Under the pieces are notes generated by a model. It was not told the origin of the DNA. It saw nothing but the letters and a program-made list of their open reading frames with translations, and searched no databases. From positions 1-23,645 of the IMG/VR virus record IMGVR_UViG_3300017917_000837: a stretch of 23,645 nucleotides of DNA, one strand, 5' to 3'. Positions within the stretch are counted from its first letter, which is position 1; each line of letters starts with the position of its first letter. Position numbers and translations under genes: made by a program. This document shows, piece after piece, positions 1 through 23,088 of the stretch. The stretch is from a virus.

Positions 1-1080
1 AAGGAATACAACGCATGTGCTTACACTTCTAAAGTTTATAAATTTGGTCGAATGATGACCGAACGCGGCCACGAAGTCATACACTATGGGCATGAAGATA
101 GTGATTTAATCTGCACCGAGCATGTTACAGTCGTTACCAATGCGGACTTAGAAACGGCCTACGGTAACTATGACTGGCGACGCAACTTTTTTAAGTTTGA
201 CACCGGTGATTATGCCTATCAAACATTCTATCGAAATGCCATACGTGAAGTAGGTCTCCGTAAACAACAGCATGACTTTATCCTACCCTTCTGGGGCTCG
301 GGTGTGCGACCTGTTTGTGATGCTCACGAAGATTTAATTTGCGTAGAGCCCGGCATTGGTTATGCTGGCGGGCATTGGGCACGTTGGAAGATCTTTGAGA
401 GTTACGCTATCTATCATGCTTACTGTGGACTCAAGGCAGTGAGCAACTGTAATCAAGACTGGTATGATGCTGTGATCCCTAACTATTTTGATCCTGAAGA
501 CTTTACATACTCAGATAAAAAAGACGATTACTTTTTATTCTTGGGTCGTGTTTACTCAGGCAAAGGCACGCACATAGCCGTCCAGGCCACAGAAGCCATT
601 GGTGCTAGATTACTCATTGCTGGACAGAATCCAGAGAATCAGGCGTTCCCTCCACATGTAGAATTTGTGGGCTATGCTGATGTAGAAAAGCGAAAAGACC
701 TAATGAGTAGAGCTAAAGGTGCGTTTGTGGCCAGTCAATATGTGGAACCATTTGGTGGTGTTCAAATTGAAATGCTCATGTCGGGCACTCCTACCATTAC
801 CACAGACTGGGGAAGCTTCACTGAAAACAACATACACGGTGTTACCGGATATCGTTGTAGAACATTTGATCAGTTTGTTTGGGCCGCAGAAAACATTGAT
901 AAAATTCGTCCCGAAAATTGTCGTACCTGGGCTGAAAACTTTACCTTAGACCGTGTGGCACCTATGTATGAAGAATACTTTCAGAACGTCCTAGATGTTT
1001 ATACTGGCAAGGGCTGGTACGAACGTCACAATAGAACCAATTTAGACTGGCTAAAAAAACAATATCCTACCGCTAAATAA
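1..1080 (+). CDS. GT4-like glycosyltransferase, 5' end cut off by window
   Basis: The frame is open from base 1, so the gene begins upstream; an internal ATG at 52 should not be taken as the start because the residues before it ([15 protein letters not shown]) fit the N-terminal part of the same fold. The visible 359 residues look like a GT-B enzyme that transfers a sugar from an activated donor. The second half has the hallmarks: a hinge phrase [10 protein letters not shown], then [10 protein letters not shown] at the start of the donor-binding domain, and [16 protein letters not shown], which fits the E-x7-E donor-binding motif of the GT4 family. No signal peptide or membrane segment is visible in the part present. 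The next gene starts 29 bases downstream. The donor and acceptor cannot be told. It fits the other glycosyltransferases of the window. Confidence 0.85.
1073..1080 (+). promoter_or_regulatory. Possible T4-late-type promoter box, weak
   Basis: CTAAATAA overlaps the end of the upstream glycosyltransferase gene and lies about 30 bases before the nuclease start. T4-like phages use a TATAAATA box read by a phage sigma factor; this copy differs at the first bases. Only the box itself supports the call, and such AT-rich strings arise by chance. Confidence 0.25.
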
Positions 1081-6377: not shown

Positions 6378-7175
6378 GTGAAGATCAATACCAACATGCC
6401 CCTGGTAGTTTTAACTTACCCGGGGCATTTTCTTCTAACCGTTTTGACTATTAGATCCTACCTGGAGTATCATACTCCTACAGAAGTTGTTGTGATTGTA
6501 GATGATCTAAGTCCACATGCTTGGTCTACCTATCTCAAGGACTGTCAAGACATGTATTGGACTACAGTAATTCCTTTTAGTCAAGTTCAAGAGTGTAAAA
6601 GTTTTAACAATGGTTGGATACGACAACAGGTAGCCAAGCTACATCTAGACAAAATTATTGACAAAGACTTTTATTTTTTTACTGACGGCGATATTGAATT
6701 TTTACACAGCGTAGATCCTACACATGTTCCTTACAGTGTGCCTTACTACAACGAAGTAACGCAACAACAAAATGACTGGGTTAAATCTGTGCTAGGCATT
6801 GAACCAGGCATACAGGTCAACAATCAGCAAGTTTGTGTTAGTAATCCTCCTTTTCGAACAGTATCGTCTGATACCTTGCGAGATCTACGTGATCATGCGG
6901 GAGAAAAACTGTTTGTTACTGGACCAGGCATGAGTGAATGGGAATTGATTGAAAATTTTAAGCACTATATCAAAGGCGAAAAACTTAATCTAATAAAGTA
7001 TGCCCCACATCAGTTAGCCGATGTCACAGCAGATCTTGATTATTTTTCGCACCAATTCTTAACCTGTTACTGCACCGACAGTGAGTTGGGTAGAGCATGG
7101 TTTGCTGACAAGATGATTTATACTTCTGATCGTATCTGGGAAATTTTATCAGGCATACACCGACAGTTTACTTAG
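6378..7175 (+). CDS. DXD glycosyltransferase-like protein (GT-A type)
   Basis: The protein of up to 265 residues resembles GT-A sugar transferases: a beta strand PLVVLTYPGHF near the start, then the metal/nucleotide-sugar motif DGD at residues 103-105 in YFFTDGDIEFLH. It also resembles uncharacterised glycosyltransferase-like families built around the same motif. The first in-frame start is GTG at 6378, one base after the previous stop; ATG at 6396 is the alternative and leaves the conserved region intact. I give the longer form but the ATG is about as likely. A strong stem-loop (6396-6428) lies in these first codons, so translation or transcription may be throttled here. The gene ends eight bases inside the converging methyltransferase gene. 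Donor and acceptor unknown. Confidence 0.65.
   Translation: MKINTNMPLVVLTYPGHFLLTVLTIRSYLEYHTPTEVVVIVDDLSPHAWSTYLKDCQDMYWTTVIPFSQVQECKSFNNGWIRQQVAKLHLDKIIDKDFYFFTDGDIEFLHSVDPTHVPYSVPYYNEVTQQQNDWVKSVLGIEPGIQVNNQQVCVSNPPFRTVSSDTLRDLRDHAGEKLFVTGPGMSEWELIENFKHYIKGEKLNLIKYAPHQLADVTADLDYFSHQFLTCYCTDSELGRAWFADKMIYTSDRIWEILSGIHRQFT
6396..6434 (+). terminator. Intrinsic-terminator-like hairpin inside the start of the glycosyltransferase gene
   Basis: ATGCCCC (6396-6402) pairs with GGGGCAT (6422-6428); after one mismatch GGTA (6404-6407) pairs with TACC (6417-6420), leaving a nine-base loop. The right arm runs into TTTTCTT (6428-6434). GC-rich stem plus U-run is the standard Rho-independent terminator form. 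It lies 20 bases after the stop of the 613-residue gene, a sensible end for the terminase transcript, yet it also encodes the first residues of the next protein. Confidence 0.65.
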
Positions 7176-9125: not shown

Positions 9126-9690
9126 TCAAAAAACTAGGGTATTACTAAATTACTATCCATGTAGTTATGGTGATACCCTAGCATCAATGTTTGGTGGAAT
9201 TGCTCCTGACTGGCGAGGGAAACTAACCCAAAGCAGTTGGGGCGATTTCAAATTTCCAACATTTTACTCTATGACCTTAGAGGAAAAAGTTGAGTGTTGG
9301 CAAAAATTTTCATTTAATCCAGTTACTTGTTGCCACAGACAACAGGGTTTTGATTTCAACGAAATAGAACCAGTCCAGGTGATAAGCATAAGAGTAAATG
9401 ATAGATCTTGGTTGCATCGTAGAGTTATTAAATTGCATTGGAATTCGTTTGAACTGAATGACACCAAGTTGGATAAAATTAGATCTCAAATGCCAGCCGA
9501 GGAACATCATAAAGTGGTTGAATTTGAATATGTCAAATGGGCCAAGGAAAACATACTGAGCAGTGATCTAGTGCTGGATTTTGAGTTGATTCATTCAGAT
9601 GAATTGGCCGGTTGGTGCCAGGATCATGGCGTCAGTTACGATCAGTCAGTGATTGATCTAATAAAACAAGATTTAAAAGATTATCAATAA
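9106..9690 (+). CDS. Unknown 194-residue protein, possibly sulfotransferase-like
   Basis: The frame is closed upstream at 9100-9102, so the first possible start is GTG at 9106, which overlaps gp32 by 20 bases; the next is ATG 9187, which would remove a conserved-looking strand VLLNYYPCSYGDTLASMFGG. That opening (strand, then a P-x-S-x-G-x-x-L turn) resembles the start of sulfotransferase-like or other P-loop-related folds, and the end (a DFELIHSDEL stretch followed by helices) recalls the same family. No firm motif is present, so I leave it unassigned. A large stem-loop (9134-9181) lies across codons 10-26. The stop overlaps the start of the next radical SAM gene (TAATG), suggesting coupled translation and a shared pathway. 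No ribosome site is seen at the GTG. Confidence 0.6.
   Translation: MQDKSSNQKTRVLLNYYPCSYGDTLASMFGGIAPDWRGKLTQSSWGDFKFPTFYSMTLEEKVECWQKFSFNPVTCCHRQQGFDFNEIEPVQVISIRVNDRSWLHRRVIKLHWNSFELNDTKLDKIRSQMPAEEHHKVVEFEYVKWAKENILSSDLVLDFELIHSDELAGWCQDHGVSYDQSVIDLIKQDLKDYQ
9134..9181 (+). repeat. Long inverted repeat just after gp32 stop
   Basis: CTAGGGTAT (9134-9142) and ATACCCTAG (9173-9181) are perfect reverse complements; with G-U pairs the stem extends five more pairs inward (9143-9147 with 9168-9172), leaving a loop of 20 bases. It begins eight bases after the gp32 stop. On the plus strand no U-run follows. On the minus strand the stem is followed by six T residues (complement of 9128-9133), the shape of a terminator for antisense transcription. 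It may instead protect the 3' end of gp32 mRNA. Confidence 0.6.
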
Positions 9691-10742
9691 TGCATTGCCC
9701 AAACCTTAAACACAATCTCAGTTGGTTTGTAAATGGTCGTTTGAAACCATGCAACAACATGGTTAACTTTCCGACCTTTTCTACTGTGCAGGAAATGCAA
9801 CAGAGTCAGCCATACCAGGATGTTGTGTCGGATCCACAAAGTCCGTATTGTCAACGGTGTTGGGACAAGGAAAGTCTGGGCATTACCAGCAAGCGACAAG
9901 CAGATTTAAAAACTCATGAAATTTATGCCAAGATTAATCCTGACTATTTGAAAATTGATGCGGCCATTGGAGTTACCTGTAATGCTGCCTGTAGAACATG
10001 TGGGCCTCCCAACAGCAGTCTTTGGCAACAGCATGAAAGAAAGTATCACGGCGTGAATTTACAAACTGTAGTCGAGGGTCATGACCTTTGGCCCACTGTA
10101 GATGCCAATCTTGATAGAATACTACAAATGGACTTTGGTGGTGGTGAACCTTGGCTAAATCAAGTTGAAGAACAAATTGCCGCACTGGAAAAATTAATTA
10201 GCCAAGGATCATCCAAACAAATAAAACTACGCTACAATACCAACGGTAGTGTTCAACCAAGAGCCCTGTTAGAAAAATTTCCCTACTTTAGATCAGTTGA
10301 AATCACACTAAGTTTAGACGATGTAGGCTCTAGATTTGAATACAATAGATATCCATTGACCTGGTCGACTGTGCTGGAAAATGTCAGTGTGTTAAAACAG
10401 ATAGCCCAAGAAAATGCTAATGTATTTTTAAAAATAAATTTTACTGTGAGTGTTTTGACTTTTTTGTATGCTGAAAGTTTTTTGACCTGGGCCAAAGACA
10501 ACAACTTGCCTGACGTCAATTGGAATATTGTGACCTTACCAGAGATCTACAGTATTAAAAGTTTGCCAGTTACTGTGCGAGAAAAACTAAATCCCGGTCA
10601 AATGTTTTATGATCTAGTGGCCAAAAGTCCTTTGCCCGATTGGCGTGAAAAATTTTTTGCTGAAACTCAACGACTTGATCAACAAAGACAACAGTCGTTC
10701 AACGACACCTTTCCAGAACTACAGGCCATAATATGCGAATAG
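9690..10742 (+). CDS. Radical SAM protein 2 with N-terminal twitch-like cysteines
   Basis: Of 350 residues, 97-104 (CNAACRTC) hold the SAM-cleaving cluster and MDFGGGEPWL the SAM-contacting GGE motif. Before the core are C3, C21, C54 and C57 (SPYCQRCWDK), the same four-cysteine layout as in three other radical SAM genes here, with an 18-residue step between the first two. This N-terminal set probably binds an auxiliary iron-sulfur cluster that holds or oxidises the substrate. The phrase SLDDVGSRFEYNRYP closely matches ISFDNVGTRFEYVRHG in radical SAM 1, so the two are likely paralogues. ATG 9690 overlaps the preceding stop; the 3' end overlaps the SDR gene by ten bases. Reaction unknown. Confidence 0.82.
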   Translation: MHCPNLKHNLSWFVNGRLKPCNNMVNFPTFSTVQEMQQSQPYQDVVSDPQSPYCQRCWDKESLGITSKRQADLKTHEIYAKINPDYLKIDAAIGVTCNAACRTCGPPNSSLWQQHERKYHGVNLQTVVEGHDLWPTVDANLDRILQMDFGGGEPWLNQVEEQIAALEKLISQGSSKQIKLRYNTNGSVQPRALLEKFPYFRSVEITLSLDDVGSRFEYNRYPLTWSTVLENVSVLKQIAQENANVFLKINFTVSVLTFLYAESFLTWAKDNNLPDVNWNIVTLPEIYSIKSLPVTVREKLNPGQMFYDLVAKSPLPDWREKFFAETQRLDQQRQQSFNDTFPELQAIICE

Positions 10743-11275
10743 CAATCACAGGACACACTGCTGGTATTGGTCGTGCCTTGGCCGAAGCCTACCGTGGCAA
10801 TGAGATTGTTGGCATAAGCAAACGCGAAGGCAACAACATAAGAAACACGCCCAAGGTTGCTGACATGATCGAACCTTGCGATGTGTTTATTAATAATGCT
10901 CAAGCTGGATATGCACAAACCGAATTGCTGTTTGAAATGGCCCAACGCTGGCAAGGAACAGGCAAAACAATCCTAGTGATATCCACAATGTTGGCACAGG
11001 CACCAGTAAATCATTTGCCAGGTCTTGATATGGATCAGTATCGCGTTCAAAAGGTTGCTCTAGAAGAAGCTGTGCATCAACTACGCAATAGACGCTTGGG
11101 TATCAAGATTGTTTTAGTTCGTCCGGGCAATGTTGCTACCAGTGCGGACAAAACAGTTCCGCCAGCAGCCGATGTAGATAATTGGGCACGAGTGTTAGTT
11201 GCTACATTACAAATGGCCCAGGCCAACAACTTATTCATCACCGACATAAGTTTAGGACCCAACAATGAATCATAA
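10733..11275 (+). CDS. Short-chain dehydrogenase/reductase (SDR), compact
   Basis: SDR enzymes oxidise or reduce alcohols, ketones or sugars with NAD(P). The 180-residue protein begins with the nucleotide-binding motif TGHTAGIG (residues 6-13), has the structural NNA at 54-56, the catalytic serine at S84 in LVIST, and the YxxxK pair Y103/K107, followed by the PG motif (RPGNVATS). All catalytic residues are present although the usual length is about 250, so the substrate-binding C-terminus is cut short. It overlaps the radical SAM genes on both sides (10 and 11 bases), a strong sign of one operon and of joint action on the same metabolite, for example nucleotide-sugar conversion. That substrate is a guess. 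Confidence 0.85.
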   Translation: MRIAITGHTAGIGRALAEAYRGNEIVGISKREGNNIRNTPKVADMIEPCDVFINNAQAGYAQTELLFEMAQRWQGTGKTILVISTMLAQAPVNHLPGLDMDQYRVQKVALEEAVHQLRNRRLGIKIVLVRPGNVATSADKTVPPAADVDNWARVLVATLQMAQANNLFITDISLGPNNES

Positions 11276-12401
11276 AGACATGTTGACCAATCCGGCGTTT
11301 TGCCCAATCCCTTGGACAGGATTGATGTATAACTTTGATGGCGCAGTCAAAAATTGTATTCGTAGTGCCACTACCTTGGGCAACATCAAAGACAATACCA
11401 TAGAAGATATTGTTGGCAACAATTCAAATGTAGCAAGACAAGCCATGATATTGGGACGACAATTTCCTAGTAATTGTAAACCATGCCACGATTTAGAAAT
11501 AGACAAAAAGAATTTTGACATTATCAGTGATCGTATTTTCTACATAAGAGAACTAAAACAAGTTCCACTGGAAACTTATCGTCCCAACAATTTTGATCTA
11601 CAGACTGTGGATGTGCGCTGGACCAATCTTTGTAATTTTGCCTGCGTGTATTGTTCGCCACAGTTTAGCAGTAAGTGGGCAGCCGAACTCAAGGTCATAC
11701 AACAAGTTCCTACTGAACAACAACAAGAAACGTTCAAACAATACATTTTTGATCGGGCCAAGAATCTCAAACATGTGTATATGGCCGGTGGCGAACCCTT
11801 GTTGATGAAAGAAAATTTAGAGTTATTGGATCGACTTGATCCAAACGTAAACCTACGCATCAACACAAACCTAAGCAAAGTAGACACACAGGTATTTGAT
11901 CGTATTTGTCAATTTAAAAATGTTCACTGGACCATAAGCATTGAATCCTGCAGTAACGAATTTGAATACATAAGGCACGGCGGTGCTTGGCAAGACTTTG
12001 TTGACAATTTAATGATTATACAAAAACTTGATCATAAAATAAGTTTTAACATGTTGCACTTGGTATTAAATCATCTCAGTATTTTTGACTGTATAGATTA
12101 TTTGAAATACATAGGATTTCATAACAATAGTTTTGTTGCCGGACCCTTGCTAACTCCCAAACATCTCAACATCTTGAACTTGCCAGAAACAGCTATCAAT
12201 GAAGTGCGCACGGCATTAAAATTACGACTCAGTCAAAAACCTGGATACTTATTAGAAAACAGTTATCAAAACATGTTGGCCTATCTTGATCAACCATTTG
12301 ACAAAAACTTATCAAACACATTCAAGCAACTAGAAATCATGGATCAACGTCGCGGCTTAGACAGCAAAAAAATATTCAAGGACTTGTATAGATATGAGTG
12401 A
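11265..12401 (+). CDS. Radical SAM protein 3 with N-terminal twitch-like cysteines
   Basis: The 378-residue protein has the core CNFACVYC at 123-130 and VYMAGGEPLL as the SAM-contacting motif. The N-terminal auxiliary set is C13, C31, C71 and C74, in the phrases FCPIPWTGLMYNFDG and CKPCHDLE. Further phrases shared with radical SAM 1 are VRWTNLCN, FSSKWAA and FEYIRHGGAW, so these are close paralogues. The start ATG 11265 lies in the end of the SDR gene (11-base overlap); ATG 11280 is an alternative. The gene ends eight bases inside radical SAM 4, continuing the coupled series. Target unknown; relatives of the SPASM/twitch group modify peptides, sugars and alcohols. Confidence 0.85.
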   Translation: MNHKDMLTNPAFCPIPWTGLMYNFDGAVKNCIRSATTLGNIKDNTIEDIVGNNSNVARQAMILGRQFPSNCKPCHDLEIDKKNFDIISDRIFYIRELKQVPLETYRPNNFDLQTVDVRWTNLCNFACVYCSPQFSSKWAAELKVIQQVPTEQQQETFKQYIFDRAKNLKHVYMAGGEPLLMKENLELLDRLDPNVNLRINTNLSKVDTQVFDRICQFKNVHWTISIESCSNEFEYIRHGGAWQDFVDNLMIIQKLDHKISFNMLHLVLNHLSIFDCIDYLKYIGFHNNSFVAGPLLTPKHLNILNLPETAINEVRTALKLRLSQKPGYLLENSYQNMLAYLDQPFDKNLSNTFKQLEIMDQRRGLDSKKIFKDLYRYE

Positions 12402-13557
12402 AGTTAACTCTATAGCATTTGCGGTCAACCCAACCGACATACCCAGCTTTCTGCTGGACTGGGAATTAACCAAGTTATGCAACCTTGATTGCTCGTATTG
12501 TCCATCGGGTATTGACGGCGGACATGATAATTCAACTGCTCATCCACCTAAAGAACAATGTTTACAGGCCATTGATTTCATGTATGAGTATGTGGACTTG
12601 TATATGCAACATCGTCGACCGAATCAGCGCAAAGTTATCCTAAATGTCTACGGCGGGGAAAGCCTGTTTCATCCTGACATTGTTGAAATACTTGAAGCCT
12701 GTAGGTCTCGGTATGAAAAGTATAAAGATCGCTGGTATCTAACTATTACCTGCACTACCAATGCTGTAGTAGGGCCAAATCTTTGGTCTCGTATTGTGCC
12801 ATTGATTGACCAGTTTAGCATGAGTTACCATGCAGAAAATTTACCCAAGCAAAAACAACAATACAAAGACAATTTATTGTATCTCAAAGAACACGGCAAG
12901 CGATTCAAATCAATCATTATGATGCACAATGATCCTGAGTGCTGGCTTGAATGCAAGAACATTGTTGAGTTTTGTAAAACACACGACATTGACTATCTAG
13001 CCAAGGCCATAGATTTTTCCAGCTCAGACTGGGCCTATACCACAGAACAATTTGCTGAATTAAAAGAATTTTGGGTAAGCAAAACACGACCTCTACACCG
13101 ACTTGAGTATAGTAAAAGTATAGACGCCATTGGCAAGGAAGAAAAAACCATTAGCCTTGATCAAGGACGAGCCTGTTGTGGCGGCAGACAAATGAGTTTA
13201 AACGGGGATCTTAAAAGCAGTGTAAGTTTTGTTCCACGTCAAGGGTTTGAAGGATGGTCATGCAGTGTAAATTGGTTTTTTCTATTTGTTCAACAACTTA
13301 CAGGAGCGGTATATACCAACAAGGATTGTCGCACCAGCACCACCGGACTGGTTGAACCTTTGGGCTATTTGTCCGATTCAGACAAGATAATCAAGAATCT
13401 CCAAACGCAACTTGAAACCAAAAGTATGCCTGTAATTAAATGTGTTAAAAAATTCTGTATGTGCGGATTTTGCGCACCAAAAGCCGAAGATCCCAAAGAG
13501 TTTATGAAGTTAATCAAAAGGCATGTGCCTGATGATGTTTTTGTTGCTAATTTATAA
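12394..13557 (+). CDS. Radical SAM protein 4 with C-terminal cysteine region
   Basis: This 387-residue enzyme differs from the other four. The core CNLDCSYC is already at residues 29-36, so no N-terminal auxiliary domain precedes it, and the SAM motif is in NVYGGESLF. Instead cysteines cluster in the second half: GRACCGGRQMSLNGDL, which is the SPASM-type loop, then NKDCRTS, and CVKKFCMCGFCAPK near the end. This is the normal radical SAM-SPASM order, with enough cysteines for one or two extra clusters. The gene starts inside the end of radical SAM 3 and is followed by a 54-base gap before uvsX. Being the only member of a different architecture, it may do a different step from the other four. 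Confidence 0.8.
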   Translation: MSEVNSIAFAVNPTDIPSFLLDWELTKLCNLDCSYCPSGIDGGHDNSTAHPPKEQCLQAIDFMYEYVDLYMQHRRPNQRKVILNVYGGESLFHPDIVEILEACRSRYEKYKDRWYLTITCTTNAVVGPNLWSRIVPLIDQFSMSYHAENLPKQKQQYKDNLLYLKEHGKRFKSIIMMHNDPECWLECKNIVEFCKTHDIDYLAKAIDFSSSDWAYTTEQFAELKEFWVSKTRPLHRLEYSKSIDAIGKEEKTISLDQGRACCGGRQMSLNGDLKSSVSFVPRQGFEGWSCSVNWFFLFVQQLTGAVYTNKDCRTSTTGLVEPLGYLSDSDKIIKNLQTQLETKSMPVIKCVKKFCMCGFCAPKAEDPKEFMKLIKRHVPDDVFVANL

Positions 13558-14672: not shown

Positions 14673-14933
14673 ATGTCAGTAGAATTAGCCAAGGAAATTT
14701 GGGACGAACTCAAGCGTTATGTAAACACAGTTGACAAAGATGACGCCGCAGAAACCCTAGTATCAGTCTTAGTTGACAACGATTGTGCCGCAGACGATAT
14801 CAAGTCAGTATTTAAATCTGATCCAGCAGTCAAAGCTGCATTAGCGCATTACCTCAAAGATCATGAGGAAGCTGATGACGACGAAGACTACGACGAAGAA
14901 GATTTTGAATACGACGAGGACGACGACTATTGA
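14673..14933 (+). CDS. Small acidic protein downstream of uvsX
   Basis: I do not recognise the 86-residue product. Residues 1-60 look helical (ELAKEIWDELKRYV, then SVFKSDPAVKAALAHYLKDH) and the last 25 residues are almost all Asp, Glu and Tyr. Such tails often mimic DNA or bind basic partner proteins. It starts two bases after the uvsX stop with the ribosome site GGAGGAA inside uvsX, so it is translated together with uvsX and may be a helper of recombination; that is inference from position. Its stop overlaps the next ATG (TGATG). Confidence 0.75.
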   Translation: MSVELAKEIWDELKRYVNTVDKDDAAETLVSVLVDNDCAADDIKSVFKSDPAVKAALAHYLKDHEEADDDEDYDEEDFEYDEDDDY

Positions 14934-16186
14934 TGACCCCCAAGTTTTTTCCAATAAAAACGGAAACTGCTTGCCAACTTAAATGGACGTGGAGCACAAT
15001 TAGTCTATACAATGGAATAACAAAATCTTGTCATCGGGTTGACAGCGACCCTGTTACCGTTGACACTTTTGATAACTTCCATAATACTCCAAAAAAATTA
15101 GCAGACAGAAAGCTCATGTTAGAAGGACAATGGCCTTCTGGCGGATGCGAATACTGCCAAAAAATAGAACAAGCAGGTGGATCAAGTGATCGTATGTTTC
15201 ATTTGTCTATACCAGACATGGCACCACCTGAGCTTGACAGCAACCCTACTGCTATACAAGTAACCCCAAAAATTGTTGAAGTTTATTTTGACAATGTTTG
15301 TAACATGAGTTGCCTGTATTGTTGGGACGGATTCAGCAGTCAAATACAACAAGAAAATGTCAAGTTTGGTCGTTTTGAAAAACACGGAGTGGTCATTGAC
15401 AACTATGCTAACCGTGTTGAAAATTTTTCTAGTTTAACTGATAAATTTTGGGAGTGGATGCATACAAACAGTCGCACCTTGAAAAGACTGCATGTGTTGG
15501 GCGGCGAACCATTTTTTCAAAAACAATTTGATCATTGTTTAGAATTTTTCAATGAACACGCTAATCCTGAACTTGAACTTAATGTTATAAGCAATCTCAA
15601 AGTTTCAAATCGTCGATTACGAGACTATATTGAAAAAATTAAAAACTTGATTGACAACCGACATATAGCTCGATTTGATTTGACTGCCAGCATAGACTGT
15701 TTTGGACCTGAACAAGAGTATGTGAGATTTGGAATTGATCTTGATCAATGGCGAGAAAATTTTGAATATCTAGTTGCGCAACCCTGGATAACACTCAATA
15801 TCAATCAGACTTTGTCCGGCTTGACTATGAAAACAGTTCCAGACCTGTTAAAATACATAAATCAGTTTAGAAAATCACGCGAAATTGGACACTATTTTTC
15901 TGCCACAGTTATGACTCACAAGTTCTTACACCCAGAAATTTTTGGTCCAAACTATTTTGACAACACCTTTGAAGAAATTTATTTGAACATGCCCACAGAA
16001 ACTTGGCAACAAAAAGAAGCAATTAAATACATGCAGGGAATACAAGCACAGTTGAATGCCGGACAACGTGACCAGGCATTGATCAATCAACTGGCAATTT
16101 TCTTAACTGAAATAGATCGGCGTAGAAATCTCAATTGGCAAAACATTTTTCCTTGGTTGGTAAGAGAGGCACAACATGTGGTATAG
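14933..16186 (+). CDS. Radical SAM protein 5 with N-terminal twitch-like cysteines
   Basis: Start ATG 14933 overlaps the stop of the small acidic gene; a TTG at 14930 is not needed. Of 417 residues, the core CNMSCLYC is at 123-130 and the SAM motif in HVLGGEPFF. The N-terminal auxiliary set is C14, C33, C72 and C75 (GGCEYCQK), matching the spacing of radical SAM proteins 1-3 within one residue. It is longer and more diverged than those, with an insertion after the core (about residues 140-180). It sits between uvsX and uvsY, which in T4 relatives belong to one recombination group, and ends 11 bases inside uvsY, so it is translated with them. No link to recombination can be read from the protein itself; it may simply be an accessory insertion. 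Confidence 0.82.
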   Translation: MTPKFFPIKTETACQLKWTWSTISLYNGITKSCHRVDSDPVTVDTFDNFHNTPKKLADRKLMLEGQWPSGGCEYCQKIEQAGGSSDRMFHLSIPDMAPPELDSNPTAIQVTPKIVEVYFDNVCNMSCLYCWDGFSSQIQQENVKFGRFEKHGVVIDNYANRVENFSSLTDKFWEWMHTNSRTLKRLHVLGGEPFFQKQFDHCLEFFNEHANPELELNVISNLKVSNRRLRDYIEKIKNLIDNRHIARFDLTASIDCFGPEQEYVRFGIDLDQWRENFEYLVAQPWITLNINQTLSGLTMKTVPDLLKYINQFRKSREIGHYFSATVMTHKFLHPEIFGPNYFDNTFEEIYLNMPTETWQQKEAIKYMQGIQAQLNAGQRDQALINQLAIFLTEIDRRRNLNWQNIFPWLVREAQHVV

Positions 16187-16628
16187 TCGAGTAACAAGTG
16201 ACCTAAGTAACATTCCAGACTTTATTGCTCACTATGAACGTGAGCTTGATGAAGCCAAGAAAGATTGTCGCATTGGTGGGCTGGTAGAAAAAAACATTAC
16301 AGCCTTGCCAGGCATCACAGAACACAGGTTTAATCAGTTACAAGAAATTGAAGCCATCTTGAATCACCTTAACATACAACTACGCAAGATTCGACGCAGA
16401 CACTTTCAAAAGTATCTAGAAGGCTATGCTCGTGCCTTGACCAGTAGAGATGCTGAAAAGTATGTGGACGGTGAAGACGAAGTGATCGACTTTGAAACTA
16501 TTATTAACGAAGTGGCCTTGTTGCGTAACAAGTGGTTGGGCATCCTAAAAGGCCTAGACAGTAAACAGTGGCAAATGGGTCATATTGTTCGTTTACGCAC
16601 AGCCGGAATGGAAGATATCACAGTATGA
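16176..16628 (+). CDS. uvsY: Probable UvsY recombination mediator
   Basis: T4 UvsY (137 residues) loads UvsX onto gp32-coated DNA. This 150-residue protein has the same size, no membrane segment, and a similar plan: a helical N-terminal half with a basic patch (LRKIRRRHFQKYLEGYARAL, 69-88), an acidic linker, and a final helix pair (RNKWLGILKGLDSKQWQMGHIVRLRTAG) like the UvsY C-terminus, where a K-x-x-x-S-R-x-(F/W)-Q-(I/M) pattern is usual. The position close after uvsX supports it. Sequence resemblance is weak, as is normal in this family, so a profile search is needed. Ribosome site AGAGAGG lies just upstream of ATG 16176, inside radical SAM 5. Confidence 0.65.
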   Translation: MWYSRVTSDLSNIPDFIAHYERELDEAKKDCRIGGLVEKNITALPGITEHRFNQLQEIEAILNHLNIQLRKIRRRHFQKYLEGYARALTSRDAEKYVDGEDEVIDFETIINEVALLRNKWLGILKGLDSKQWQMGHIVRLRTAGMEDITV

Positions 16629-17386
16629 GTTTATTTGCTGACGAACGTGCTAGTCACGAACATAGTCTTGAGGTTCTTAACCAGTTACAAGAGTATGACG
16701 AGTTTATGGAAAGCATACAAACTGTAGTAGATCTTGGTTGCGGTCAAGGATTTGATTTAGAGTGGTGGGCTACTCGTATGACTAGAGAGGATGTTCCTAA
16801 ACCTTTGAACATCAAGTGCACTGGTGTGGATATGCTAGATGAATTGTCTATGGCCCAAAAATATCCCAACATAGTTTATCAAAAAACCAATTTTGAAGAA
16901 ACAATTCATACTCCAGCAAAAAGCAAATATGATGTGCTATGGTGTCACGACAGCTTTCAACATGCGTTGAATCCTATTAAAACTCTAAGTAATTGGTGGC
17001 ACATAGCCAGTGATGGCGCCATGCTCATCATCATGGTTCCGCAGACAACCAATATGAAACATAACAAATTATCTTTCATACAAGAATCAGGAACCTATTA
17101 TCACTACACGTTGGTAAATCTAATTCACATGTTGGCAACTTCGGGCTGGGATTGTCGATCTGGCTTTTTTCTTAAACGCCCGCTGGATCCTTGGTTACAT
17201 GCTGTGGTTTATAAAAGCACCCATGCTCCTATGGATCCTAGAACTGCCAACTGGCATACACTAAGTGAAATGAAACTCTTGCCCGATTCAGCTGACACCA
17301 GTGTGTATAAACATGGTCTTTTGCGACAGCAAGATTTGATTTTGCCTTGGCTTGATCAGAGTTTATCCGATCTAGGACAACAATAA
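16625..17386 (+). CDS. Class I SAM-dependent methyltransferase (methyltransferase 11/23 type)
   Basis: ATG 16625 overlaps the uvsY stop as ATGA, which fixes the start; the GTG at 16568 would extend deep into uvsY. The 253-residue protein has motif I VVDLGCGQG at 34-42, the acidic residue of strand 2 in CTGVDML at 65-71, and a motif IV region KYDVLWCHDSFQHALNP at 101-117 without the NPP signature. These small-molecule-type enzymes often methylate sugars, lipids or natural products. It heads the glycosyltransferase cluster, so methylation of a glycan is the simplest guess. The stop is followed by 12 bases and then the next glycosyltransferase. Confidence 0.8.
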   Translation: MSLFADERASHEHSLEVLNQLQEYDEFMESIQTVVDLGCGQGFDLEWWATRMTREDVPKPLNIKCTGVDMLDELSMAQKYPNIVYQKTNFEETIHTPAKSKYDVLWCHDSFQHALNPIKTLSNWWHIASDGAMLIIMVPQTTNMKHNKLSFIQESGTYYHYTLVNLIHMLATSGWDCRSGFFLKRPLDPWLHAVVYKSTHAPMDPRTANWHTLSEMKLLPDSADTSVYKHGLLRQQDLILPWLDQSLSDLGQQ

Positions 17387-17398
17387 GATATATAGTAA

Positions 17399-18070
17399 AT
17401 GATACCAATTTTTATAGGGTATGATCCTCGAGAAGCCATAGCATTTCATGTTTGCTCTAATAGCATTATTAGACATGCCAGTCAACCTGTGAGTATCATG
17501 CCCTTGGCTCTTAATCTGTTTCAAGATTACACAGAAACGCACACCGATGGCAGCAACCATTTTATCTACAGTCGTTTCCTAGTGCCGCACCTGATGAGTT
17601 ATACAGGTTGGGCTATATTCATTGACGGTGACATGATTGTACGTGACGATATTACTAAATTATGGAATCTACGTGACAACGGCAAAGATGTAATGGTAGT
17701 CAAGCACAATTACAAAACTCGCATGACAGAAAAGTATTTGGGTAGCAAAAATGAAGACTATCCTAGAAAGAACTGGTCTAGTGTAATTTTATGGAACTGT
17801 GCCAACCATCCCAACAGAAAGTTAACTCCAGAATTTATTGAGCAGTCAACTGGAGCATATCTTCATCGCTTTAGCTGGATAAGCGATGATCGCATTGGCG
17901 AACTACCCAAGGAATGGAATTGGCTACCAGACGAATATGGACCAAATCCTGATGCCAAGTTATTACATTACACCCTAGGCACTCCGTGCTTTCATGAATT
18001 TGCTCGAACCCCGCAAGCCGACGAGTGGCATCAAGAACGCATGTTGACTGATTATTGTTTACAAAGATGA
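17399..18070 (+). CDS. GT8-like glycosyltransferase
   Basis: The 223-residue protein opens with IPIFIGYDPREAIAFHVCSNSI, the N-terminal strand and helix of GT8-type enzymes, and has the metal-binding DGDM at residues 76-79 preceded by FI. A histidine motif near the end (LLHYTLGTPCFHEF) fits the second metal ligand of the family. A serine/arginine/phenylalanine phrase FIYSRFLVPHL precedes the DXD, as in many bacterial GT8 members. It probably transfers a hexose from a nucleotide sugar. Soluble by sequence. Its stop codon overlaps the next start (ATGA). Confidence 0.82.
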   Translation: MIPIFIGYDPREAIAFHVCSNSIIRHASQPVSIMPLALNLFQDYTETHTDGSNHFIYSRFLVPHLMSYTGWAIFIDGDMIVRDDITKLWNLRDNGKDVMVVKHNYKTRMTEKYLGSKNEDYPRKNWSSVILWNCANHPNRKLTPEFIEQSTGAYLHRFSWISDDRIGELPKEWNWLPDEYGPNPDAKLLHYTLGTPCFHEFARTPQADEWHQERMLTDYCLQR

Positions 18071-18978
18071 TTACTGTAGTAAGTTATCTAGCGGGTATTC
18101 CTTCAAAAAATAAAAACCCCAGCAAACCAGAGATACTGCGAAGATTCATTCAAGGAGTAAACGCAACCGGGGATCGTGGAATTTTACACAAAGAATCTAG
18201 TATTATACCGTGCGACGTGGCAGTGTTACAGGGTTGGACACACGAGCACGGAAAGAATAGTCCGCATTTAAAATTCAGGCAACAAGTAATATCTGATCCT
18301 AACAAAAAAAGATTAGTTATAGTTGACAGTAATCTATTCAACTATCGACAATCCAAACAAAATAAAAATTATTTGCGTTATAGTTTTGATGGAGTATTTC
18401 CTACAACTGGATTTTATTTTGACACCGACCCTGATGTTGAACGTTGGCAACAAATTAGTCAAGATCACAATATAGTGCTCCAACCATGGCGTGACGAGGG
18501 CCAACACATTTTGATCTGCACTCAACGACAAGGTGGTTGGTCAATGAAAGGCCTTTCTGTTGTAGACTGGGTTAATCAAACAGTTAAAGAAATTAAAAAA
18601 TATTCCGATCGTCCCATTGTAGTTAGATTTCATCCTGGAGATAGCCAAGCCGTCAAGTATCGAACAGAATTAGAAAAGAAATACAAAATTAGCAACAACG
18701 TTCGTCTAACGGATGATTTTGCTGGTGCGTGGGCAACCATAACATATAACAGTAGCCCTGGTGTTGCGTCAGCCATTGAAGGGATTCCGGTATTTGTAAC
18801 CGACCCTGTGCCACAAACAAGCCAAGCCTATCCAGTGGCCAACACAGATATCAGTCAAATTGAAACACCCAAAACATTTGAACGTCAAGATTGGCTGAAC
18901 CGATTGTGTATGAGCCATTGGAGCTTTGACGAACTCAGCAAAGGCACAGCCTGGGCACACATAAGGAAATACATATAA
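18067..18978 (+). CDS. Capsule-polysaccharide-transferase-like protein A (GT-B type)
   Basis: ATG 18067 overlaps the previous stop as ATGA and is preferred over TTG 18055. The 303-residue protein has the paired motifs DRPIVVRFHP (181-190) and TYNSSPGVASAIEGIPVF (226-243), which recall the donor domain of GT-B capsule and Kdo-transferase-like enzymes (HP, then SS/SG-x-x-x-x-A-I-x-G-x-P). The gene at 21175-22035 has the same two motifs in the same order and a similar C-terminal region (QDWLNRLCMSHWSFDEL against DQWLVETCHTEYTLQEI), so the two are paralogues. The last residues TAWAHIRKY match there too (IWLQRILPAL). Sugar unknown. The stop overlaps the next ATG. Confidence 0.65.
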   Translation: MITVVSYLAGIPSKNKNPSKPEILRRFIQGVNATGDRGILHKESSIIPCDVAVLQGWTHEHGKNSPHLKFRQQVISDPNKKRLVIVDSNLFNYRQSKQNKNYLRYSFDGVFPTTGFYFDTDPDVERWQQISQDHNIVLQPWRDEGQHILICTQRQGGWSMKGLSVVDWVNQTVKEIKKYSDRPIVVRFHPGDSQAVKYRTELEKKYKISNNVRLTDDFAGAWATITYNSSPGVASAIEGIPVFVTDPVPQTSQAYPVANTDISQIETPKTFERQDWLNRLCMSHWSFDELSKGTAWAHIRKYI

Positions 18979-19631
18979 TGTGGTTGTTAGCCGCTAGATC
19001 TCGACCACAAAATTGTCAAAGATTTATTGACGCATGGATTGCAACTGCATCATCTACTCCGGTATATGTCAGACTGGATACATGCGATCCGTTCTTGGAT
19101 GAATTGATTGCGCTGTCATGGCCCAAAGAATTTACCGTAGTTGTAGGACCCCGAGAAGGCTTACGAGCTGCCATGCAAGAGATGTTTGTCAAATATCCAA
19201 ACGAACCATGGTATGGCTTGCTGGCTGATGACCTGGTTCCAAAGACACTGAATTGGGATCAACTGTTGGTTGCCTGTGCTGGACTTCGAGCCATAAGTTA
19301 TCCAAATGATCTAGGCGGTAAACCCAAGTTACCTACCCATCCAGTGGTTGGTGGGGATCTTGCCAGAGCTGTAGGATGGTTTGGGTTTCCGCATTGCCAA
19401 CACCTGTATGTAGATACCGCCTGGCGAGCAATCGGAGAACGTCTTAAATGCCTGCACAGGATGGAAGATGTCATAGCAGAACATGTGCATCCGTTTTGGA
19501 ACAAAACACAAACGGATCAGGTATATACCGAAAGCATCAAACGGTCAGCCGGAGACCGTGAAAGATTCAATGCTTGGGTAGAGAATGAAGTGCCCGAGTT
19601 AATTAATCGATTGAAACAGGAAGGATTCTAA
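18978..19631 (+). CDS. GT2-like glycosyltransferase-family protein
   Basis: The 217-residue protein begins WLLAARSRPQNCQRFIDAW, the strand-helix start of GT-A enzymes (a first strand with SRP followed by helix), and carries an acidic motif ADDLVP at 83-88 in the place of DXD. The later stretch VVGGDLARAVGWFGFP suggests an acceptor-binding region, and HRMEDVIAEHVHPFW a catalytic histidine/acid region like GT2. It starts at ATG 18978 with AAGGAAA (18963-18969) as ribosome site and overlaps the preceding stop by one base. Its function within a glycan pathway is inferred from the neighbours. A non-enzymatic member of the fold is also possible. Confidence 0.6.
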   Translation: MWLLAARSRPQNCQRFIDAWIATASSTPVYVRLDTCDPFLDELIALSWPKEFTVVVGPREGLRAAMQEMFVKYPNEPWYGLLADDLVPKTLNWDQLLVACAGLRAISYPNDLGGKPKLPTHPVVGGDLARAVGWFGFPHCQHLYVDTAWRAIGERLKCLHRMEDVIAEHVHPFWNKTQTDQVYTESIKRSAGDRERFNAWVENEVPELINRLKQEGF

Positions 19632-20381
19632 ATGAACATAGCATGGTCGGGATTAGCTGATGCTGAATACTGGGAATACATAGCCAAGTATTGTGTTCCG
19701 TCATGGACAACCCTGCCTGGTGACAAATATATTGTGCATGACAGCAACCTAGTGAATATAGATGGAATTCAAGTGGTTGATTGGAATAACACTCACAATC
19801 CATTGGCGCCATATTTGTCCTTGCCACAATCAAGAAAATACAAAGAACGAAATTTTTGGCGCAAGATGCAGAGTCAGGTTTGGGCCCTTAAAAATTTAAC
19901 ACAGTATGATTGGGTATTTTTAATGGATACCGATGTTGAAGTTATAAATTTTAACTTGGCAGAACTGGAAAGAATAGCCGCAGAAGTTAAAGCCGCAGGC
20001 TTGGTGTGGGCTACTGGTGAATCCAATCGCCGTGGACATGATTCAGGACATATCTTGGTCGACATGCGCCATTCAAATTTAAACAGACTGATTAATTACT
20101 ACGAAAACATTTGGGATTCAGGTTTAATACACACGCTTGAAAAGGCCTATGATGGTCATGCTGTTGAACACATGCTGGCCGGTCCATACCCGTCGGTCAA
20201 GTTTCGCAATAGAGACTACGGTTCTGGCCTACATGTATATCACGATTTTGGCACAGCACACTATGGCAGTAAAGAACCTAAAACACTAAGAGCAGCTTGG
20301 ACAGGCACAGGCAAAGAATTTGTTGATAAACGCCTAAGTGAAATACCAATCAAGCATTATAAAAGCGATCAGGTCCAGTAA
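19632..20381 (+). CDS. DXD glycosyltransferase-like protein (GT-A type)
   Basis: The 249 residues include the DTD motif at 99-101 in WVFLMDTDVEV, preceded by a helix KMQSQVWALKNL and followed by NFNLAEL, an arrangement typical of nucleotide-sugar-dependent GT-A transferases. A histidine-rich segment (GLHVYHDFGTAHYGSKEPK) lies toward the end and could hold the metal or acceptor. A strong ribosome site AGGAAGGA (19618-19625) precedes ATG 19632, and the ATG directly follows the previous stop. The 3' end overlaps the converging minus-strand glycosyltransferase by 13 bases. Donor and acceptor are unknown. Confidence 0.7.
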   Translation: MNIAWSGLADAEYWEYIAKYCVPSWTTLPGDKYIVHDSNLVNIDGIQVVDWNNTHNPLAPYLSLPQSRKYKERNFWRKMQSQVWALKNLTQYDWVFLMDTDVEVINFNLAELERIAAEVKAAGLVWATGESNRRGHDSGHILVDMRHSNLNRLINYYENIWDSGLIHTLEKAYDGHAVEHMLAGPYPSVKFRNRDYGSGLHVYHDFGTAHYGSKEPKTLRAAWTGTGKEFVDKRLSEIPIKHYKSDQVQ

Positions 20382-21163
20382 GACTCTTGACGCTGAATCT
20401 TTAAGTCGTTAGATTTGCTACGACCCAGTTGCTTTCTAGCACCTTTGAGATGATCCAAATAAGCACCCCATTCGCTGTTGATCAAGGGATGGCCTTCGCC
20501 AGTAATCAAGTGACCAGACCAATCGCGTGAATCAACCAGCACCAGTTTACGCACAGCATCAAATACAAAACTATCGTGCCACTCGGCCAAGGTAAAGATG
20601 CCATGTTCGGCTGCGTCATAGAACCATTGAAACTTGGTTAAGAATTCTTGTATCTGTGGACTGCGCAAATTCATGGCATATAGTCCACACTCCGTATATT
20701 TGCCACGTCGTCCTAGATAACACAAGTCGGCTGTGCATAATTCATCCAGCCGTTCAGTAGTAATAGGACTGTGACACACCATGTCGGCATCCATCCAGAT
20801 CAAGTAATCTGAATTTGATCGTCGGGCCGCATCGAATATGCTGTAGACCTTATGAGAAAAACGCACAGCATCCCACTTGAATCCTTTGCCAGCATCCTTG
20901 CGTAGGCTACGAACAGGATCTGCTGTGACATCACCTGTGGCTTTGGGCACACCCTGCCAACGGGTTTTAAATGCCACCAGTTCTTCTACTTGATTTAAAT
21001 CTCGCACAATTAGATTATCAGCAGATTCGGTAACCTGGCAACCTTCTGCATATACAACTAAGATTACTGTGGCAGGCCAAGTGGCCAAGAATGTTTCGAT
21101 CATCCTACGACCATATTGTTTATACCCCTGGGCATTAAAAGTGGTAACTACAGTATATTTCAC
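20369..21163 (-). CDS. Inverted GT-A glycosyltransferase-like gene
   Basis: The 264-residue protein starts KYTVVTTFNAQGYKQYGRRM, a GT-A strand and helix, and has DAD at 125-127 in YLIWMDADMVCHSP. A helix with KVYSIFDAARR lies before it, and an acidic/histidine phrase (WHDSFVFDAVR) after it fits the catalytic region. The C-terminus is basic (GARKQLGRSKSNDLKIQR). It begins with GTG (complement of 21161-21163), only 11 bases from the GTG of the divergent gene. It is the second of only two minus-strand genes and also ends in an overlap with a facing glycosyltransferase, so it probably entered as a unit. A late-like ACTAAATA is readable upstream on its own strand (complement of 21169-21176). Confidence 0.75.
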   Translation of the reverse strand: MKYTVVTTFNAQGYKQYGRRMIETFLATWPATVILVVYAEGCQVTESADNLIVRDLNQVEELVAFKTRWQGVPKATGDVTADPVRSLRKDAGKGFKWDAVRFSHKVYSIFDAARRSNSDYLIWMDADMVCHSPITTERLDELCTADLCYLGRRGKYTECGLYAMNLRSPQIQEFLTKFQWFYDAAEHGIFTLAEWHDSFVFDAVRKLVLVDSRDWSGHLITGEGHPLINSEWGAYLDHLKGARKQLGRSKSNDLKIQRQESYWT

Positions 21164-21174
21164 ACGGATATTTA

Positions 21175-22035
21175 GTGATCAAAACCATAGCCTACTTTCC
21201 TTCTCAATGTGCTCAAAACAGTGTTCCAGTAATGAACGCTGTGTTGGAACACCTACAAAGTTTAAATATACAAATTGTCAAAGACAGCATGGACGCCGAT
21301 GCGGCCGTAATATGGTCAGTGTTATGGCATGGCCGTATGCAGGACAATAAAAAAGTTTACGAACATTATCGAGCACAAGGTCGCCCAGTTATTATCATTG
21401 AGGTAGGTGCACTGCGCCGCGGTGTCACTTGGAAAGTTGCGGTAAACAACATCACTGCCGATGGTTACTATGGCCACACAGAAAACTTAGATTGGGATCG
21501 TCCTAGGAAGCTAGGCATCAGCCTAGCCGAAACAGCGTTTAATCGTCCTGAGATCTTAATTGCCGCACAACATCAACACAGTTTACAGGTTGCTGATCAA
21601 CCCAGTGTAGAAGCCTGGATCTATCGACAGATCATAAGAATCAAACAGTTTACGGATCGCCCTATTGTGGTTAGACCTCATCCTAGATCAAAGCTGAATA
21701 CAAAGTTATTACCGAGCGATGTTGTGTTTGAAGAACCACATCAATTGGCCAACACATACGACAGTTTTGACATGCACTTTGATTGTCATGCTGTGGTAAA
21801 CTACAATTCTGGTCCAGGCATACAAGCAGCAATATCAGGCACAAGACCCATAGTTGATAGAAGCAGTTTAGCCTACCCAGTATCAGTGAGCTATGCTGAA
21901 TTGGAACAGCCGTATGACGCTGATCGAGATCAGTGGCTAGTAGAGACATGCCACACAGAATACACACTACAAGAAATACAACGAGGAATATGGTTACAGA
22001 GAATACTTCCGGCCCTATTGACTGCGCCTGTGTAA
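21175..22035 (+). CDS. Capsule-polysaccharide-transferase-like protein B (GT-B type)
   Basis: The 286-residue protein shares with the gene at 18067-18978 the motifs DRPIVVRPHP (161-170) and YNSGPGIQAAISGTRPIV (210-227), then SLAYPVSVSYAELEQP. It therefore probably carries the same GT-B donor-binding half, and uses nucleotide or lipid-linked sugars as in capsule synthesis enzymes. The N-terminal half differs (TIAYFPSQCAQNSVPVMNAV), so acceptors may differ. GTG at 21175 is the first start after an in-frame stop at 21145-21147; no good ribosome site is seen. The last 46 bases overlap the next gene. The minus-strand gene diverges 11 bases upstream, so any promoter for this gene lies inside it. 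Confidence 0.65.
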   Translation: MIKTIAYFPSQCAQNSVPVMNAVLEHLQSLNIQIVKDSMDADAAVIWSVLWHGRMQDNKKVYEHYRAQGRPVIIIEVGALRRGVTWKVAVNNITADGYYGHTENLDWDRPRKLGISLAETAFNRPEILIAAQHQHSLQVADQPSVEAWIYRQIIRIKQFTDRPIVVRPHPRSKLNTKLLPSDVVFEEPHQLANTYDSFDMHFDCHAVVNYNSGPGIQAAISGTRPIVDRSSLAYPVSVSYAELEQPYDADRDQWLVETCHTEYTLQEIQRGIWLQRILPALLTAPV

Positions 22036-22718
22036 TACACGGTGACGCCTATAGTTGGGAATATGTAGATAGACTTTATAAAATGCTGTCTAGGAATTCC
22101 AGTCGAGAAATACGCCTACACGTCTACACTGAAAAGACTCGCCCGGTGCCTGAGCCGTTTATAAAACACGAGTTGACCGATTGGGGCATAGTGGGTCCTA
22201 AAAAATCTTGGTGGTATAAAGTTCAACTGTTCAATAATCAATATCATCAAGGTCCGTTGTTGTATTTTGATTTGGACATTGTCGTTGTAAACAACATCGA
22301 TTGGATGTTTCACCATTCCTTACAGAGTTTTTGGACAGTAAGAGATTTTAAACATCTTTGGAACGCTTCAGACTTTTCTATCAACTCTAGTATCATGTAT
22401 TTTGACACAACCAAATTTTCTTATGTTTGGGATGATTTTATAAGTCGAGATTTTAACAATACCTTACTTAAATATCGCGGCGATCAAAATTATCTAACCG
22501 AAGTAATTAGACCAGAAAAACGAAAATATTTTGATCAAGAGAGAATAAAAAGTTGGAGATGGGAGTGTTTTGATGGCGGATATAATTTTATTCAAAAACG
22601 TCACATCAACATAGGTAAAGGAACCAGTATTCCTCCCCAAACCAGTGTTTTAATTTTTCATGGCCATCCCAAACCCGGGGATCTCAAAGACCCTGTAGTA
22701 AACCAATACTGGCAGTAG
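21990..22718 (+). CDS. DXD glycosyltransferase-like protein (GT-A type)
   Basis: I take ATG 21990 (242 residues), preceded by an AGGA ribosome site at about 21984, rather than the GTG at 21933, which would overlap the previous gene by 100 bases. The motif DLD at 94-96 in LLYFDLDIVVV follows a helix KSWWYKVQLFNNQ, as in GT-A enzymes; IMYFDTTKFSYVWDDF and RGDQNYLTEVI are like the acceptor region of GT8-related proteins; and LIFHGHPKPGD near the end supplies the histidine metal ligand. These features together make a small metal-dependent sugar transferase likely. It closes the glycosyltransferase cluster; a weak terminator follows. Confidence 0.75.
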   Translation: MVTENTSGPIDCACVIHGDAYSWEYVDRLYKMLSRNSSREIRLHVYTEKTRPVPEPFIKHELTDWGIVGPKKSWWYKVQLFNNQYHQGPLLYFDLDIVVVNNIDWMFHHSLQSFWTVRDFKHLWNASDFSINSSIMYFDTTKFSYVWDDFISRDFNNTLLKYRGDQNYLTEVIRPEKRKYFDQERIKSWRWECFDGGYNFIQKRHINIGKGTSIPPQTSVLIFHGHPKPGDLKDPVVNQYWQ

Positions 22719-22833: not shown

Positions 22834-23088
22834 ATGAACTTAAAAGTAAGAGCAGGATTAGAAGTAGTAGGTATGGTTGTGGTGGCTTCGTTAGTAGTCG
22901 CAGGTGTTCAATCAATTTTGACATATCTAACCAATACATACGGTATTGAAACAATGTTGACAGCCGCACAGTTTTGTATGATGGCAGCCGCGATGTATTT
23001 TATCGGTGGCATTATGTATGATATGCGTGTAACCAAACTCAAATACCAAGCCAAACTCAAAGAGATGGTTGACCAGAAAAGCAATTAA
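22834..23088 (+). CDS. Small two-helix membrane protein
   Basis: The 84-residue product has two hydrophobic segments, about residues 11-30 (VVGMVVVASLVVAGVQSILT) and 41-62 (ending AAAMYFIGGIMY), joined by a short polar turn, and a basic C-terminal tail (RVTKLKYQAKLKEMVDQKSN) that should face the cytoplasm. I do not recognise a family. The start is well supported by AAAGGAAA at 22823-22830. A strong early-type promoter drives it and a second promoter of the same type lies in its last codons. Small early membrane proteins of phages often act in superinfection exclusion or host takeover; this is inference only. Confidence 0.8.
   Translation: MNLKVRAGLEVVGMVVVASLVVAGVQSILTYLTNTYGIETMLTAAQFCMMAAAMYFIGGIMYDMRVTKLKYQAKLKEMVDQKSN

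Follow-up and report, generated by a model that had tools for sequence, protein, structure and literature searches.

A glycosyltransferase locus of aquatic T4-like jumbo phages that keeps its ends and exchanges its middle

The DNA analyzed here, hereafter called the window, is the entire 23,645-base IMG/VR record IMGVR_UViG_3300017917_000837, which is a fragment of a T4-like jumbo phage. Positions 16625-22718 hold a methyltransferase gene followed by seven glycosyltransferase-type genes, and all eight open reading frames (named herein by their start positions) are present as listed in a preliminary description of this DNA. We find that this block is one example of a locus that occupies a fixed slot between uvsY and an AAA-type ATPase gene in related phages, and that its ends are conserved while its middle turns over. 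Our favored reading, which we judge somewhat likelier to be right than wrong, is that the encoded enzymes glycosylate the virion. The T4-like core genes in the window include those for the large terminase, gp32, UvsX, and UvsY. Compared with Arenbergviridae (PA5oct and PAC2 among them), its terminase shows 53% identity and its UvsY about 50%. The source is a large freshwater phage, and its clade consists of T4-like jumbo phages from aquatic environments.

A search with the 21175 protein retrieved 80 IMG/VR loci (identity 49-79%). In the 28 contigs that carry both boundaries, the window not counted, the uvsY-AAA slot holds a glycosyltransferase locus of about 7.5-11 kb, and the AAA gene forms the boundary in every case. 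Each of these contigs has 17399 at the left end and the 21175-21990 pair at the right end. The content between them consists of one to three GT-B paralogues, GT25 members, FkbM and other methyltransferases, and further glycosyltransferases. To quantify this arrangement, we compared 19 non-redundant loci, including the window, as 171 pairs. Gene 17399 is kept in all 19 loci with a median identity of 78%, and the median identity of uvsY is 85%, whereas the median share of middle genes that have a partner with at least 50% identity is 0. For the 48 pairs whose 17399 proteins are at least 80% identical, the median share is 0.09, with a spread from 0 to 1. In one locus (L066), 17399 is 91% identical, yet the middle matches to 18067 reach just 27-38%. 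The same slot lacks a glycosyltransferase locus in PAC2, where uvsY is followed by uvsW, and in Phosso, where it is followed by genes annotated as hypothetical.

Homologues of 17399 are found in cultured phages and in bacteria, with bacterial identities of up to 77%. The jumbo-phage genes are nested among proteobacterial ones, many of which come from freshwater Comamonadaceae, Rhodocyclales, and Rhodobacteraceae. This nesting therefore suggests that 17399 was acquired from hosts of such a proteobacterial kind, which is a lead on the host rather than proof of it. Often located 5' of 17399 in the loci of relatives is an HldE-type nucleotidyltransferase fused to a cupin of the mannose-6-phosphate-isomerase type. 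This fusion (L043, 3026-3856, with about 30 further members in the loci) is possibly a new sugar-nucleotide enzyme.

Evidence from outside the window links homologous genes to the phage particle. Directly behind its tail-fiber genes, Caulobacter phage C1 has a homologue of 17399, an FkbM gene, and two GT-B genes. Between its major capsid and tail-stabilization genes, the podovirus ctDrO704 encodes a tetratricopeptide repeat (TPR) protein, an FkbM protein, and a homologue of 17399. Three jumbo relatives (G001, G002, and G004) encode a TPR protein with a GT9-like domain (PF01075, E 3e-5) at most about 1.3 kb from gp23, with conserved neighbors, and the gp23 block of G002 also holds a gene with a major-tropism-determinant N-domain. 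Both the jumbo-phage protein (E 4e-53) and the ctDrO704 protein (E 3e-57) are matched by a profile built on the C-terminal domain of a TPR family from bacteria. In 24 of 80 bacterial loci, no more than 300 bp separate a related TPR gene from the 17399 homologue. FlmG, a demonstrated cytosolic protein O-glycosyltransferase (PMC7591256), likewise combines TPRs with a C-terminal glycosyltransferase domain, and the enzymes are soluble in both systems. These connections point to decoration of the particle rather than of DNA. Glycans are also reported on virion proteins (capsid and tail tube) of mycobacteriophages (Freeman 2023, cited in PMC12619734). That is the same kind of target as the one favored here, where it is proposed from the genes. 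The mycobacteriophages are different phages, and their enzymes are reportedly different and fewer.

A separate observation concerns a SAR116 contig (L154, 4084-10469), in which homologues of the TPR protein, 17399, 20369, and GT-B genes occur together with an asparagine synthase gene. This could be a phage module residing in a cell or a provirus.

Several points weigh against virion glycosylation. The TPR glycosyltransferase has a GT9-like domain and is likened to FlmG by its domain layout, and its gene lies outside the window. Relative G003 yielded no such gene, and the window does not extend far enough to reveal one. The genes next to the locus in the jumbo clade are those of replication and recombination rather than of the virion. 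Furthermore, the low sharing of middle genes partly reflects divergence, and some close pairs do share their middle. The families for Kdo (3-deoxy-D-manno-oct-2-ulosonic acid) synthesis and activation, kdsA and kdsB, are absent from G001-G005 and from Pelagibacter phage Mosig, and therefore any use of cytidine monophosphate (CMP)-Kdo would depend on host supply. Phage-made CMP-Kdo was thus rejected for these phages. The only case observed is Synechococcus phage S-SCSM2R (L106, 9995-13520), where genes annotated as KdsB and KdsA form a run with a homologue of 17399, and this phage may make its own CMP-Kdo.

That last arrangement also fits the foremost competing explanation, which holds that the enzymes alter the lipopolysaccharide (LPS) or capsule of the infected cell and thereby block superinfection or change recognition. 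The authors of a study of pelagimyophages prefer to interpret similar genes as modifiers of the host O-chain (PMC7029224). The GT-B fold described below is that of Kdo transferases for capsule and O-antigen, 17399 weakly matches the O-antigen enzyme WbbM (E 0.0012), and the HldE-like nucleotidyltransferase in the loci of relatives belongs with this evidence, as do some bacterial neighbors. For example, the 17399 homologue of Polaromonas resides in a cluster with NeuB and uridine diphosphate N-acetylglucosamine (UDP-GlcNAc) 2-epimerase, members of surface-sugar pathways, as in surface polysaccharide loci. However, no enzyme of the locus has a clear membrane segment, and those scanned against Pfam and PHROG gave no match to GtrA/B-, flippase-, or polymerase-type families. 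Cassettes in other phages adjoin tail-fiber or virion genes, and a lytic phage would presumably gain little time from rebuilding LPS. We consider host-surface modification rather unlikely overall, although it is still a substantial rival. On this evidence it is placed below virion glycosylation. It is less probable again that the acceptor is a non-virion protein of host or phage, such as flagellin or a pilus, or a glycoconjugate that is secreted, to which the CBM60-like protein described below would bind. TPR glycosyltransferases such as FlmG do modify flagellin (PMC7591256), bacterial homologues adjoin TPR genes, and the CBM60-like protein is specific to the locus, with one copy in G002. Against this proposal, the phage TPR glycosyltransferase gene is beside gp23 and fiber-type genes or between capsid and tail genes.

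Phage T4 glucosylates its own modified DNA bases, and the preliminary description had named this as one of three possible uses of the transferases, together with a virion glycan and a changed host surface. Turnover of glycosyltransferases that decorate hydroxymethylated pyrimidines would suit an arms race with modification-dependent restriction, and a GT25-type member in relatives weakly matches a phage 2-oxoglutarate oxygenase and a phage glucosyltransferase family. However, the thymidylate synthase/hydroxymethylase family PF00303 is present in none of five relatives (G001-G005) nor in Mosig, while the controls T4 (three matches), PAC2, and Phosso were positive. The C5-cytosine methylase family PF00145 is likewise absent from the relatives, with a working control, and a T4 beta-glucosyltransferase query (the only T4 glucosyltransferase run) found no match in G002. 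Three of the relatives in these searches measure 320-343 kb, and G002 holds the T4-like core; the completeness of G001-G003 is not given. A search of the relatives for the TET/JBP family PF12851 gave no match, and no control matched either. DNA glycosylation of the T4 type is thus the most improbable of the explanations weighed here. Among the three uses originally listed, the virion glycan is the best supported, and the host surface persists as its rival.

If the virion is indeed the target, the soluble enzymes of the locus would act sequentially in the host cytosol and assemble a short, lineage-specific oligosaccharide on one or more virion proteins, most likely the capsid or fibers. Where a relative has a TPR-heptosyltransferase-like gene next to its capsid gene, the encoded enzyme may initiate the chain. 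The common part would come from 21175, 21990, and the conserved GT8-type enzyme 17399, the variable glycosyltransferases would add the variant part, and methyltransferases would cap the product. For the KpsC-fold enzymes, the probable donor is a CMP-activated sugar of the ulosonic-acid class, and their chemistry would differ from double displacement at an Asp residue. Variation in the middle would then follow selection on recognition at the particle surface, for example during adsorption. A complete glycan pathway is not readable from this fragment alone.

This arrangement resembles bacterial O-antigen and group 2 capsule loci, which also have conserved ends and a serotype-specific middle with glycosyltransferases and accessory enzymes. 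Unlike those loci, the phage locus has no recognized export, flippase, or polymerase gene and sits in a phage replication block, and it is unlikely that the acceptor is the same. Perhaps the locus is the phage equivalent of a serotype locus, in which exchangeable glycan coats for the particle are made by a new family of KpsC-fold glycosyltransferases that lost the Asp nucleophile, with a TPR O-glycosyltransferase start encoded beside the capsid gene and a CBM60-like partner. We offer this fuller proposal tentatively, as a possibility that is distinctly less secure than virion glycosylation itself.

The GT-B family represented by 18067 and 21175 has 224 members in 81 loci (window included), with 2-4 per complete locus. 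Neither window protein matches Pfam or PHROG. The two are homologous (31% identity over 151 amino acids, E 3e-19) and carry the DRPIVVRxHP and YNSxPG motifs that had been noted before. A scan of the collection with 18067 gave no confirmed relative; those of 18067 were retrieved by the 21175 search. In the family tree, a right-end clade includes 21175 (support 100/100) and a middle clade includes 18067 (100/99), and there is a large sister group that lacks the HP motif. The family has several copies per locus, and the tree puts the two proteins in different clades, each with strong support, which makes them old paralogues. The tree rules out a recent tandem duplication, and the earlier notion of a paired duplication does not hold in that sense.

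In contrast, the earlier GT-B-like label is borne out by predicted structure. For the AlphaFold2 (AF2) model of 21175, with a predicted local distance difference test (pLDDT) score of 91, the top 26 Foldseek chains from the PDB are all WbbB, KpsC, or KrkA (best E 3e-8). Structural alignment gave Z scores of 14.4 for KpsC (239 residues, root-mean-square deviation 3.8), 11.7 for WbbB, and 10.5 for KrkA. The retaining Kdo transferases as a group scored 10.3-14.4, compared with at most 9.4 for other GT-B enzymes. The model of 21175 therefore has the two-Rossmann GT-B fold of the GT99 (WbbB), GT107 (KpsC), and GT140 (KrkA) families. These retaining Kdo transferases have QxxxD and (K/R)xHP motifs in common (PMC12887879), and the Asp of QxxxD is the covalent nucleophile, with a spacing of 37 between Q228 and H265 in WbbB (PMC9587256). 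The corresponding motifs are Q132HQHS136, RPHP (167-170), and YNSGPG in 21175, and Q153xxxG (G157), RFHP (187-190), and YNSSPG in 18067. An NSS-type motif aligns with WbbB, and the donor-site Gln and the (K/R)xHP motif occur at the same spacing as in the Kdo transferases. The (R/K)xHP motif is present in 102 of 165 distinct family members, in 101 of which a Gln precedes its His by 35-37 residues. At the position of the Asp, which is absolutely conserved in Kdo transferases, these 101 proteins have Ser (58), Gly (42), or Asp (1). The sole member that keeps QxxxD (QLPGD; L018, 264-1202) branches close to the middle clade, with a long branch of its own, and offers a natural reference for the loss of the nucleophile. 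Thus, the structural comparison proposed in the preliminary description agreed for the modeled fold and disagreed for the catalytic Asp. The phage proteins are also shorter (286-303 amino acids) than the Kdo transferases. Because the (K/R)xHP motif binds CMP, they probably use CMP-sugars.

A second protein of potential relevance is a variable, beta-rich protein encoded directly 3' of 21990 in 31 of 53 distinct loci, mostly 25-38 bases downstream. CBM60 is a calcium-dependent carbohydrate-binding module, and it is the nearest structure to a model of this protein (pLDDT 93), with a VIA-align Z of 7.1 over 100 of 109 residues; the next, unrelated structure scored 4.9. Sequence searches gave no match, nor did Foldseek alone give a significant one, such that the assignment draws on VIA-align and the sequence pattern. 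The protein may be a binder, or it may bear or display the glycan. The complete-looking relative G002 has a single copy, directly after 21990. The window has none, and 21990 is followed there by the gene for a small membrane protein.

Islands of glycosyltransferase genes are already known in large aquatic phages (PMC7029224, PMC12619734). One example is the pelagimyophage host recognition cluster, described there as hypervariable and as gaining radical S-adenosylmethionine (SAM) cassettes (PMC7029224). Indeed, Mosig (EXVC030M) has the 17399, 20369, and 21990 families and two GT-B members all together, with a match of E 8e-48 for the 20369 family. The locus examined here differs from the pelagimyophage genes in its fixed position between uvsY and AAA, its conserved ends, and its several GT-B copies, and the parts of that description consulted make no mention of a relation to the KpsC fold or of a CBM60-like partner (PMC7029224). 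Within the searches made, the new elements are a locus that keeps its position and its ends while its middle is swapped, a KpsC-fold family that lacks the nucleophile, a CBM60-like partner, and the link to TPR glycosyltransferase genes beside capsid genes. Large aquatic phages often carry glycosyltransferase genes, and the functions annotated for them, such as action on LPS or DNA, are guesses. Because this locus is a defined system with homologues in cultured phages, the target of such islands and the reason for their variability become directly testable. Moreover, a broad phage branch of the retaining Kdo transferase fold that lacks a residue thought to be essential is a mechanistic puzzle for glycoenzymology.

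The individual genes are listed in Table 1. The assignment of DxD-type transferases in the preliminary description stands for 17399, whose D76 and D78 are invariant, and for 21990, a distant homologue of P1 PmgQ by tblastn that adjoins 21175 in nearly all loci. It is weaker for 20369, where the Pfam match is below the cutoff, and for 19632, which has no direct Pfam or PHROG match. These last two were considered as a second clear paralogue pair and rejected, as direct BLASTP is not significant and only iterated profiles link them. Profile-profile comparison of the DxD families of the locus gave nothing convincing for a common ancestry. The prediction that 18978 is a transferase was corroborated; its family has just four members across the loci, including the window, and is inverted or relocated in relatives. 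The two transferases proposed outside the locus also proved to match known families.

Table 1. Genes of the glycosyltransferase locus, its boundaries, and two transferase genes elsewhere in the window
Position	Strand	Feature	Evidence or remark
1..1080	+	GT4-type glycosyltransferase outside the locus, 5' end cut by window start	PF00534, E 1e-14; phrog_3408, E 3e-192
6378..7175	+	DUF6492-type putative glycosyltransferase outside the locus	PF20102, E 3e-7
16176..16628	+	uvsY-like recombination mediator, left boundary	phrog_231, E 6e-15
16625..17386	+	Class I SAM methyltransferase, locus gene 1	PF13489, E 2e-8; same position in many relatives
17399..18070	+	GT8-type (DxD) glycosyltransferase, conserved left end	PF01501, E 1e-9; phrog_28018, E 2e-38
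18067..18978	+	GT-B protein, KpsC/WbbB-like family, middle clade	Homology to 21175, tree, motif scan
18978..19631	+	Glycosyltransferase, phrog_14945 type, variable middle	phrog_14945 ('glycosyltransferase'), E 1e-33
19632..20381	+	DxD-type putative glycosyltransferase, variable middle	Iterative profile family in common with 20369
20369..21163 (start also given as 20372)	-	DxD-type glycosyltransferase, semi-conserved	PF00535, E 0.003 (below cutoff); DAD motif visible
21175..22035	+	GT-B protein, predicted retaining-Kdo-transferase fold, conserved right end	AF2 model, pLDDT 91
21990..22718	+	DxD-type glycosyltransferase, conserved right end	phrog_1962, E 2e-17
22834..23088	+	Small membrane protein 3' of the locus	Hydropathy maximum 2.38; 92% identity in L002
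23131..23643	+	AAA-type ATPase, right boundary, truncated by window end	phrog_1250, E 6e-17

The T4 late-promoter motif TATAAATA shows no excess in the window (31 found versus 33 expected). Between the core genes of the window are five radical-SAM proteins (1840-2955, 9690-10742, 11265-12401, 12394-13557, and 14930-16186), two of which have a clear N-terminal SPASM-type domain. The genome of G002 has about 18 matches to radical-SAM families, five of them at 242352-250090. Finally, upstream of the terminase gene, positions 1110-1820 encode a DNA/RNA non-specific endonuclease (PF01223, E 8e-39) with a signal-peptide-like start.

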